Shown: positions 27,321 to 29,447 of the stretch, one piece after another
Layout of the letters: each line of letters begins with the position of its first letter
Position numbering within the stretch: the stretch's first letter is position 1
NCBI GenBank assembly: GCA_947644305.1
Contig: CANRYS010000002.1
Location: 124,001-188,000 of the forward strand
From: an uncultured Roseburia sp.
Lineage (GTDB): Bacteria; Bacillota; Clostridia; Lachnospirales; Lachnospiraceae
DNA length: 64,000 nucleotides
Direction: 5' to 3'
Made by a program: the position numbers and the translations under genes
The notes under the pieces: model-generated
What the model saw: only the letters and a program-made list of their open reading frames with translations
Database searches by the model: none
Told to the model about the DNA's origin: nothing

Positions 27321-28049
27321 ATGTCAGGACATTCTAAATTTGCAAATATCAAGCATAAAAAAGAAAAAAATGATGCAAAAAAGGGAAAGATATTTACTGT
27401 GATCGGTCGTGAGATCGCTGTGGCGGTAAAGGAAGGTGGCCCAGATCCAAATAACAACAGTAAACTTCGCGATGTGATCGCAAAGGCAAAGGCAAATAAC
27501 ATGCCAAATGATACCATCGATCGGGGAATCAAAAAAGCGGCTGGCAATGTGGACGCAGTGAATTATGTAAATATTACATATGAAGGATACGGTCCCAATG
27601 GTACAGCGATCATCGTAGAGGCATTGACAGATAATAAGAATCGTACTGCTTCCAATGTACGAAATGCTTTTACAAAAGGAAACGGTAATGTGGGAACAAC
27701 AGGCTGTGTTTCCTATATGTTTGAAACAAAGGGACAGATCATCATTGATAAAGAAGAATATGAAACCGACGCTGATGAATTTATGATGCTGGCGCTGGAT
27801 GCAGGAGCAGAGGATTTCAATGAAGAAGAAGACAGCTACGAGATTCTGACAGCGCCGGATGATTTCAGCCAGGTGCGTGAGGCACTGGAAAAAGAAGGAG
27901 TGCCGATGGCACAGGCAGAGGTCACGATGCTTCCCCAGACTTATGTGGAGCTGACGGATGAAGAAGATAAAAAAATGTTTAACCGTATTATGGATCTTCT
28001 GGACGAAGACGATGACGTCCAGGCAGTATACCACAACGTAGACGAATAA
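27321..28049 (+). CDS. yebC: YebC/TACO1 family protein
   Basis: The 242-residue product begins with the invariant [20 protein letters not shown] and contains [20 protein letters not shown] and [19 protein letters not shown]. It belongs to the YebC/TACO1 family, long listed as transcription regulators and now also linked to easing translation of proline-rich stretches. ATG 27321 follows GAGGG by 6 bp; an upstream in-frame start at 27285 adds an unconserved extension. Confidence 0.94.
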
Positions 28050-28071
28050 ACTGTGAGTGCGGCGGGCAAGT

Positions 28072-28200
28072 TATAATTAAAACGCCGGCATGCACCGAAG
28101 GTGTTCCATGAGAGCCACAACACTGTGCAAGCTTGCTTGCAAACAGTGTTGTGGCTCTCATGGAAAAGATTGCGAAGCAAATGCTGGTGTTTTCATTATA
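28072..28200. repeat. Cloverleaf-like structured element between yebC and recU
   Basis: The outer arms TATAAT-t-AAAACGCCGGCAT (28072-28091) and ATGCTGGTGTTTT-c-ATTATA (28181-28200) pair over 19 of 20 positions, with two G-U pairs. Inside are three hairpins: CACC-GAA-GGTG (28093-28103), a 23-bp perfect stem (28104-28126 with 28143-28165) capped by GCAAGC/GCTTGC, and TTGC-GAA-GCAA (28170-28180). The two small hairpins share the GAA loop. The plus strand continues with an A run, so it is not a terminator. Whether it acts as RNA or DNA is unknown. Confidence 0.8.
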
Positions 28201-28233
28201 AAAAAGAACGACATAAGAGCAGTAAACGATATG

Positions 28234-28292
28234 AGTACCCTATGCAAGAGCGCTGCCGCCGCTTGCGGTGAGCAGCGCTCTTGCATAGGGTA
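28234..28292. repeat. 22-bp perfect hairpin upstream of recU
   Basis: The arms 28234-28255 and 28271-28292 (GTACCCTATGCAAGAGCGCT plus GC and its complement) are perfectly complementary. The centre CGCCGC-tt-GCGGTG adds a further 6 bp with one G-U pair. The layout is like the long hairpin of the element at 28072. A 12-bp direct repeat (GGTATAGTGGCG at 28301 and 28320) follows before recU. Confidence 0.75.
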
Positions 28293-28355
28293 CGAATAGA
28301 CGGTATAGTGGCGTTGCCCGGTATAGTGGCGATGCTGCCACGGAAGAAGGTAATT

Positions 28356-28889
28356 ATGGCGACATGGAATTCCAGAGGTTTGCGAGGATCATTTTTAGAA
28401 GAACTCATCAACCTCACAAACGAAAAATACAGAAATCAGAATCTGGCGCTGATCCAAAAAGTGCCAACCCCGATCAAACCAATTCATATTGATGAGAGTA
28501 CAAGGCATATTACGCTGGCATATTTTGAACAAAAAAGTACAGTGGATTATATCGGCGTCGTGCAGGGAATACCCGTCTGTTTTGATGCCAAAGAGTGTGC
28601 GGAGGATCGCTTTCCCCTTGCCAATATCCATGAGCACCAGATGAAATTTATGGAGGAATTTGAGGCACAGGAGGGCATCGCTTTTATACTTATTTATTTT
28701 AAAAGCCGAGATTGTTTTACCTATCTTCCTTTTACCTATTTAAAAACCTTCTGGGAACGAATGGAAACGGGAGGGAAAAAAAGCTTTGCATTTGATGAGC
28801 TAAACCCTTCTTTTGAAATATCTACATACTCCGGAACCTTTGTTCATTATCTTGAAAAAATTCAGATGGATCTGGAGGAGAGACAGTAG
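28356..28889 (+). CDS. recU: Holliday junction resolvase RecU
   Basis: RecU cuts four-way DNA junctions in recombination and chromosome segregation. The 177-residue protein begins MATWNSRGLRGSFLEELINL and has the PD-(D/E)xK nuclease core STVDYIGVVQGIPVCFDAKE (D, E/K pattern), then FPLANIHEHQMKFMEEFE and GIAFILIYF. GAAGAAGG lies before ATG 28356, and MATWN matches the conserved N-terminus. recU is usually next to a class A PBP gene; here it stands alone between large palindromic structures. Confidence 0.92.
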   Translation: MATWNSRGLRGSFLEELINLTNEKYRNQNLALIQKVPTPIKPIHIDESTRHITLAYFEQKSTVDYIGVVQGIPVCFDAKECAEDRFPLANIHEHQMKFMEEFEAQEGIAFILIYFKSRDCFTYLPFTYLKTFWERMETGGKKSFAFDELNPSFEISTYSGTFVHYLEKIQMDLEERQ

Positions 28890-28924: not shown

Positions 28925-29093
28925 TCTATGAAAGCCGGTTGCTGCGTGCTGGCGCACTCCCGCAACCGCCGCCGGAATTCGTACTAACGGGCTGTCGCCC
29001 TGCGTACTCATTCCGTCTTGCCCGTCCAATGCCCATGTGTTTGTGCGTGTGAACACGCTCATCCACATGGTCGCTGTCCGGGGCTTTCATAGA
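28925..29093. repeat. Second multi-hairpin closed element, downstream of recU
   Basis: A perfect 12-bp outer stem (TCTATGAAAGCC, 28925-28936; complement 29082-29093) closes three hairpins. H1: GGTTGC/GCAACC (28937-28967) with inner GTGC/GCAC. H2: CGGAAT/ATTCCG (28973-29015) with inner GTAC/GTAC and GGGC/GCCC. H3: CCATGTG/CACATGG (29033-29070) with inner GCGTG/CACGC. Inner loops in H2 and H3 are nearly symmetrical. An A run follows, as in the element at 28072. It could be a structured RNA gene or a DNA element; no open frame of note lies in it. Confidence 0.75.
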
Positions 29094-29210: not shown

Positions 29211-29249
29211 TCTCAAGATAAATACTAAAATATACGGAGGTGAATGATC

Positions 29250-29447
29250 ATGAGTAAATCTAGCAACAGAATGGAAGTACCACAGGCTAAAGACGCTATG
29301 GACAGATTCAAAATGGAGGTTGCATCCGAGCTTGGAGTAAACTTGAAAGAGGGTTACAACGGTGACCTCACATCTAGAGAGGCTGGAAGCATCGGTGGCG
29401 AGATGGTTCGTCAGATGATCAAAAAGCAGGAAGAGTCTATGCGTTAG
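29250..29447 (+). CDS. Alpha/beta-type small acid-soluble spore protein
   Basis: The 65-residue protein matches alpha/beta SASPs, which coat and protect spore DNA: AKDAMDRFKMEVASELGVNL, then GYNGDLTSREAGSIGGEMVR and QMIKKQEE. The GPR protease site region (KMEVASELGV) is present. ATG 29250 follows GGAGGTG. Expression is expected in the forespore under sigma-G, though I did not confirm a sigma-G box. A strong terminator follows. Confidence 0.95.
   Translation: MSKSSNRMEVPQAKDAMDRFKMEVASELGVNLKEGYNGDLTSREAGSIGGEMVRQMIKKQEESMR

Follow-up and report, generated by a model that had tools for sequence, protein, structure and literature searches.

The 131-base cloverleaf between yebC and recU in an uncultured Roseburia genome is, judging from its sequence and its relatives, probably a mobile-derived structural repeat that is used in cis in mRNA. 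It would belong to a set of dispersed Lachnospiraceae cloverleaf repeats that spread as DNA and whose kept copies act in cis as RNA, a reading to which we assign a probability of about 45%. The evidence comes from the fold of the element, its conservation at the yebC–recU site, matching elements at unrelated sites and a named relative, Clostridiales-1 RNA (RF01699), that has a copy nearby.

A cloverleaf just past the yebC stop codon

The window analyzed is a 64,000-nucleotide stretch of contig CANRYS010000002.1. The yebC stop codon ends 21 bases 5′ of the cloverleaf, and the features of the gap and its surroundings are as follows.

27321–28049, forward strand: yebC, the upstream gene (Pfam PF01709, PF20772)
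28071–28201, forward strand: whole cloverleaf element, its sense strand being that of yebC and recU
28071–28076, forward strand: TTATAA at the left edge, with a direct repeat at the right edge (28196–28201)
28071–28091, forward strand: 5′ arm of the outer stem, 20 pairs with 28181–28201 and one T·C mismatch
28092–28104, forward strand: first mini-hairpin, CACC-GAA-GGTG, with a C-GAA-G triloop
28105–28164, forward strand: long central hairpin, 27 pairs
28126–28141, no strand assigned: tip motif TGCAAGC-TT-GCTTGCA, which recurs in much of the set but is absent from some members
28141–28142, forward strand: bulge of two A residues beneath the tip, in the 3′ half of the hairpin
28170–28180, forward strand: second mini-hairpin, TTGC-GAA-GCAA, with a C-GAA-G triloop
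28181–28201, forward strand: 3′ arm of the outer stem, partner of 28071–28091
28236–28292, forward strand: second long hairpin of the same gap, with a 21-bp stem
28356–28889, forward strand: recU, the downstream gene (Pfam PF03838)
28926–29092, reverse strand: RF01699 copy (103.5 bits), an outer stem and three hairpins, beyond recU

Inside the outer stem, the layout from 5′ to 3′ is a GAA mini-hairpin, the long central hairpin and another GAA mini-hairpin. An earlier sequence-only reading had described paired outer arms containing two G-U pairs, and two GAA mini-hairpins flanking a perfect 23-bp stem, all of which we find: the G-U pairs are 28084/28188 and 28087/28185, and the 23-nt central arms (28104–28126 and 28143–28165) are 100% complementary. 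A 5-bp tip hairpin above the two-A bulge completes the 27 central pairs. The full symmetric unit spans 28071–28201, and the structure also stands at 28072–28200. TTATAA flanks all six of the gap copies shown, is palindromic and lies within the arms; because it is its own palindrome, it counts as stem as well as possible target duplication. In two copies (L005 and L006), TGAAAACACCAGCAT lies inward of TTATAA at both ends.

The minimum free energy of the element is −74.5 kcal/mol, compared with −32.8 ± 3.6 for 200 shuffles, none of which folded as low (z = −11.6). The opposite strand folds almost equally well (−65.8; z = −10.3), and the fold alone is thus no proof of RNA. Directly 3′ of the cloverleaf stands an A run and no T run, as the sequence-only reading had noted in setting a terminator aside. 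Neither a promoter-like site nor a terminator-like site of the sense strand is seen in the interval 27950–28450; one weak site lies on the minus strand. A search of 28040–28360 against Rfam at E ≤ 10 gave seven matches, all far below their cut-offs and five of them microRNA models, and the RF01699 copy was the sole match at gathering level in the window. The phage collection held no match to the element.

The second long hairpin of the gap (28236–28292) was compared across five species: 7 of its 21 pairs are changed on both sides, and 105 of 105 cells pair. Its flanks, ATGAGTA...TACGAAT, resemble by eye those of RF01699 hairpin 2. The window also contains, at 29247–29444, a gene for an alpha/beta-type small acid-soluble spore protein (PF00269).

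Pairing is kept at the yebC–recU site while letters change

A survey of yebC matched 36 of the 39 genus genomes, and 30 loci were examined. Besides the window genome (G000), the element is present in G001, G004, G017, G020 and G024 at 91–94% DNA identity over the aligned gap. In G003, another species, the letters are replaced, but 56 of 56 pairs are kept under the window structure, with 21 changed on both sides; this homolog has seven G-U pairs and no A-C. Covariation across homologous gaps, which the sequence-only reading had proposed as a check, is present in the six-row gap alignment: 99.4% of cells pair, and double-changed pairs number 21, where shuffles give 4.3 and slid partners no more than 5, nearly all of this covariation coming from one divergent row.

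In G023, G027, G029 and G030, recU, recognized from its MxTWNSRG start, comes after yebC with no cloverleaf in the gap. The sequence-only reading had set gaps lacking both the element and covariation against an RNA; such empty gaps exist, yet the covariation is strong. At other yebC loci, genes other than recU come next. The yebC gap of G025 (L152, about 2236–2700) holds three tandem 146-bp units downstream of yebC, each consisting of a hairpin with the shared tip and an arm bearing two mini-hairpins, and the gap of G013 holds an RF01699-like element at 46.7 bits, slightly under the cut-off. This pattern of presence and absence across yebC loci indicates that the element is gained and lost. 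Compared with the five other gap copies of its clade, that of G024 (L008, 1522–1652) has an inverted central-hairpin tip but uninverted side hairpins, which looks like an inversion between palindromic arms.

Elements of the same layout occur at unrelated sites

We built a model, R1, solely from the yebC–recU gap copies. Within the genus, R1 matched 21 of 39 genomes at E ≤ 0.1, with rows that cover only part of the model in G012, G016 and G022, and some rows comprising the central hairpin only. Genus sites outside the training set scored 76 bits (G003:C7), 73 bits (G004:C3), 67 bits (G030:C175) and 53 bits (G015:C95), and matches in other genera of the family scored 32–58 bits. At E ≤ 0.001, R1 matched 15 of 299 genomes of the family, one of them the window genome; a phylum-wide draw gave 2 of 299, namely the window's own and one family member. 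Both of these scans used stricter filters and scored 11 candidates per genome, so weak members may be missed. Many R1 rows also score on the second strand because the members are palindromic.

The tip TGCAAGC-NN-GCTTGCA is enriched in the family: 63 of 397 genomes contain it, and 2 of 397, by our own reading of the table, contain a reversed control. When folded, many tip sites lie at the tips of long hairpins and others in weak folds only (L170, L172, L175); the tip is missing in some members (L299, L300, L305 and others). What recurs at other sites is the layout, the GNA mini-loops and often the tip, with the stems rewritten. Such copies point to a dispersed structural repeat and not to a lone riboswitch. 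Of the sequence-only interpretation, a conserved structure that covaries is supported, and a lone RNA without a related family is not: a related layout is known from RF01699, a copy of which lies 725 bp downstream.

Copies within one genome differ mostly in the central stem. Four copies in G028 and a fifth in G006 have nearly the same outer stem and side hairpins and a different central stem; double changes affect 6 of 47 consensus pairs, and several cells are broken, in part at alignment gaps. Each of the five copies lies centrally within a foldback repeat of about 530–545 bp, in which 134–168 pairs join the two flanks in five of five folds. Three copies in G216 likewise have similar side hairpins and different central stems; here 9 of 47 pairs show double changes, and some cells are broken. 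In the window genome, the cloverleaf sequence occurs at one site only, so that many near-identical copies are not seen there, and the second R1-type site, on C22, has different letters.

Several further loci were seen alongside these. The L002-type loci (L002, L024, L026, L027, L029) represent a second location, where a related cloverleaf adjoins ACTACGACAGG, a palindrome that resembles an operator; in G000 and G024, this cloverleaf is about 1 kb away from tandem RF01699 rows. In the rumen Lachnospiraceae Tb.RUG.456 (L060, L064, L120), a repeated hairpin with the same tip stands, by eye, directly after T-rich terminator-like hairpins (TTTTTTGTGCGATAA...). Desulfocapsa/Desulfobia loci (L061, L121, L129) share a palindromic element that ends near AACTGTTCAGCAGTGC and has an internal GTGCAAGC-AG-GCTTGCGAAC match; this is probably an unrelated MITE.

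The nearest named relative, RF01699, appears mobile at least in part

RF01699 resembles the window element in its outer stem closing three hairpins, in the long hairpin with the tip GCUUGC and an A bulge on the 3′ side (consensus), and in being found in the same genomes. The order differs: in RF01699, the long GCUUGC-tip hairpin comes first and is followed by two internally looped hairpins, whereas in the window element it stands between two mini-hairpins. The score sets the window element apart from RF01699: 28040–28360 gives no match to that family even at E ≤ 10 (cut-off 48 bits). Two borderline elements reach 34.9 bits (L194) and 31.3 bits (L034) against the same cut-off.

At E ≤ 0.001, RF01699 has 17 matches in G000, 62 in G481 and 31 in G344, and at least 27 in G024 and at least 93 in G306, the latter two being lower bounds with part of the candidates scored; 14 control genomes gave none. 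RF01699 copies lie near both R1-type sites of the window genome, with three adjacent rows in tandem at G000:C22. Among 16 copies from G344, G306 and G481, 12 have both ends, GATACCAG.../...CAACATC, starting near GATACCAGGGTCAAAAGG and ending near CCTTTTGACCCCAACATC; that right end is missing in L179, L198, L199 and L208. Nine of the 12 two-ended copies have an exact flanking repeat of 7–8 bp, eight found by script and one by eye.

L197, by script: ATTATAT
L200, by script: ATTATAA
L202, by script: ATTGCTAT
L203, by script: ATGAAAT
L204, by script: AAAATATT
L211, by script: CTATAAG (a bare 77-base hairpin with the shared tip)
L212, by script: ATATAAT
L169, by script: TTGTTAA
L207, by eye: ATTTTTGT

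The two-ended copies L209, L210 and L213 have no exact repeat. Of 22 copies from the genus, 8 are two-ended: L290, L294 and L296 have exact repeats, L277 matches at seven of eight letters, and L278, L289, L291 and L292 have poorer repeats or none; because the other 14 copies do not have that right end, the MITE ends hold for part of RF01699.

Inverted ends with target duplications in a multicopy repeat are the hallmark of a MITE. Part of RF01699 combines terminal repeats, target duplications and copy number in this way, and its sequences thus indicate a family that is mobile at least in part, and MITE-like. No inward-facing pair at insertion-sequence distance, as expected of an autonomous partner, was seen among the listed places (one terminal-repeat form in four genomes, by eye). 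The MITE-like alternative raised in the sequence-only reading is therefore borne out as to copies at unrelated sites, and the terminal repeats and target duplications that it named are found in the relative RF01699. The window element has terminal inverted repeats in its 20-pair outer arms, and its own mobility would follow by analogy with these relatives. Rfam types RF01699 as 'Gene; sRNA', and a multicopy family of which part has inverted ends and target duplications may need its type revised. In the portion of the 2010 discovery paper considered here (PMC2864571), Clostridiales-1 appears in a table only, as a likely RNA that is not cis-regulatory. Searches of one PMC article collection by family name and accession found nothing in it on RF01699 mobility.

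Gene orientation and loops favor one strand, and G-U counts do not

At 27 R1 sites outside the training set, both neighboring genes run with the element in 15–17 cases and both against it in 4 (P = 0.007–0.019), the range of 15–17 depending on the ORF length asked, with ORFs called by length alone. At 150 aa, upstream and downstream genes each count 19 to 8 (P = 0.05), and at 100 aa 14 of 21 sites have the upstream stop codon between −25 and +44 relative to where the element starts. When 24 untrained elements were oriented by the tip, their triloops were GNA in 16 cases and the complement in 2 (P = 0.001); R1 carries the GAA loops and the tip, so this concordance is partly built into the matches.

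The sequence-only reading had taken the G-U pairs as a hint of possible selection on RNA, an argument that does not generalize. Initially, G-U outnumbered A-C by 18 to 4 among 20 window-type elements and by 46 to 22 among a set of 42. Orientation in these counts came mostly from the model, which likes G-U; with the tip alone setting orientation, the counts became 28 to 15 in 26 elements (P = 0.07) and, in 24 elements excluding the window and L010, 21 to 15 (P = 0.41). We dropped this comparison as a strand test. In the stems of 34 RF01699 copies, there are 2,097 Watson–Crick pairs, 14 G-T and 11 A-C.

RF01699 copies gave a mixed picture. The upstream gene ran with the element in 24 copies and against it in 17 (41 copies, orthologous ones included), a bias that we dropped after it was not reproduced in 58 fresh copies (29 with, 29 against). 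Both neighbors ran with the element versus against it in 18 to 6 copies of the first sample and 20–21 to 7–9 of the fresh one, and in the fresh sample the downstream gene ran with it in 42 of the 56 copies that have a downstream ORF. As between RNA and folded DNA, loop strand and gene orientation favor RNA, and G-U counts do not.

Alternative explanations

The element could be a matter of DNA alone, namely a foldback, cruciform-prone, non-autonomous transposable element for which RNA is incidental; we consider this a serious possibility, at somewhat under even odds. Arm complementarity would then arise from template switching or arm conversion in replication, or from a fold needed by a transposase or a single-stranded intermediate. 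The almost exclusively Watson–Crick stems of RF01699, its inverted ends and target duplications, the tandem amplification in G025 and at G000:C22 and the foldback setting of the G028 and G006 copies all agree with such an element. So does the C-GAA-G loop, which also caps d(GCGAAGC), a very stable mini-hairpin in DNA. The lack of a G-U preference outside trained sites is as expected of DNA and speaks against action in cis as RNA, as does the G024 tip, inverted without its side hairpins, because an RNA read on one strand should not tolerate inversion. The lack of promoter-like and sense-strand terminator-like sites around the gap and the even upstream-gene counts in the fresh RF01699 copies count on that side too. 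However, neither the co-orientation with genes (15–17 to 4) nor the one-strand loops (16 to 2) would be expected if duplex DNA alone mattered, and the window element shows no clear target duplication, only the palindromic TTATAA. Membership of a dispersed set of repeats is supported by the kept layout with rewritten stems, the presence or absence of the element in gaps and the copies elsewhere.

Strong covariation, together with the Rfam type of RF01699, would also suit a stand-alone small RNA or a riboswitch specific to yebC–recU. We consider this improbable: matching elements at many unrelated sites largely refute it, and four relatives have yebC and recU without the element, the gap lacks a promoter-like site, and all Rfam families score below their cut-offs there. 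The position between two genes is what one would expect of an ordinary intrinsic terminator, or could harbor a chance palindrome, but these explanations, to which we give almost no weight, are refuted by the fold (z = −11.6), the missing U run in the sense strand, the covariation and the recurrence of the layout elsewhere. A broader and more speculative proposal, which we think rather unlikely, is a large Lachnospiraceae cloverleaf superfamily that includes RF01699, moves as DNA and is selected as a shape. Its loops and junctions would be kept and its central stem actively rewritten between copies of one genome (as in G028 and G216), yielding 'structure-only' repeats that would serve as interchangeable mRNA insulators just after stop codons, with varied stems avoiding mutual recombination.

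A proposed cis-acting repeat kept by its shape

Our best reading is that the window element is a MITE-derived structured segment of the yebC–recU transcript, just past the stop codon. Copies would have spread as DNA, MITE-like as RF01699 copies plainly did, and those that were kept would act in cis as RNA. The cloverleaf would be transcribed with yebC and form straight after its stop codon, where it may shield the upstream message from 3′-to-5′ decay, present a double-stranded target for processing between the two genes, or both. Recognition on one strand would involve the tip and the GNA mini-loops, and the stem letters would be free to change provided that pairing holds.

There are likenesses to known repeats. 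Correia/NEMIS and ERIC MITEs are, according to the review PMC10969869, short inverted-repeat elements that, like the window element, fold in transcripts; the same review reports that Correia-bearing mRNA is cut by RNase III and that ERIC at gene 3′ ends alters mRNA decay. ERIC is one long stem-loop, as described in PMC2267715, whereas the window type is a four-way cloverleaf that is kept with replaced stem letters. REP/REPIN sequences with their RAYT transposases are, according to PMC3116915, dispersed extragenic palindromes that form hairpins in single-stranded DNA or mRNA, as the window type may, but they differ from the window element in layout and size.

In place of the guess of a one-off riboswitch, these results offer a family that can be tested. 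Sequence-based repeat finders easily miss a repeat whose shape, not its letters, is kept, and RF01699, an Rfam 'sRNA', may at least in part be better read as a MITE. The family would offer a natural system in which palindromes kept by selection on RNA can be set against arm correction at the DNA level.
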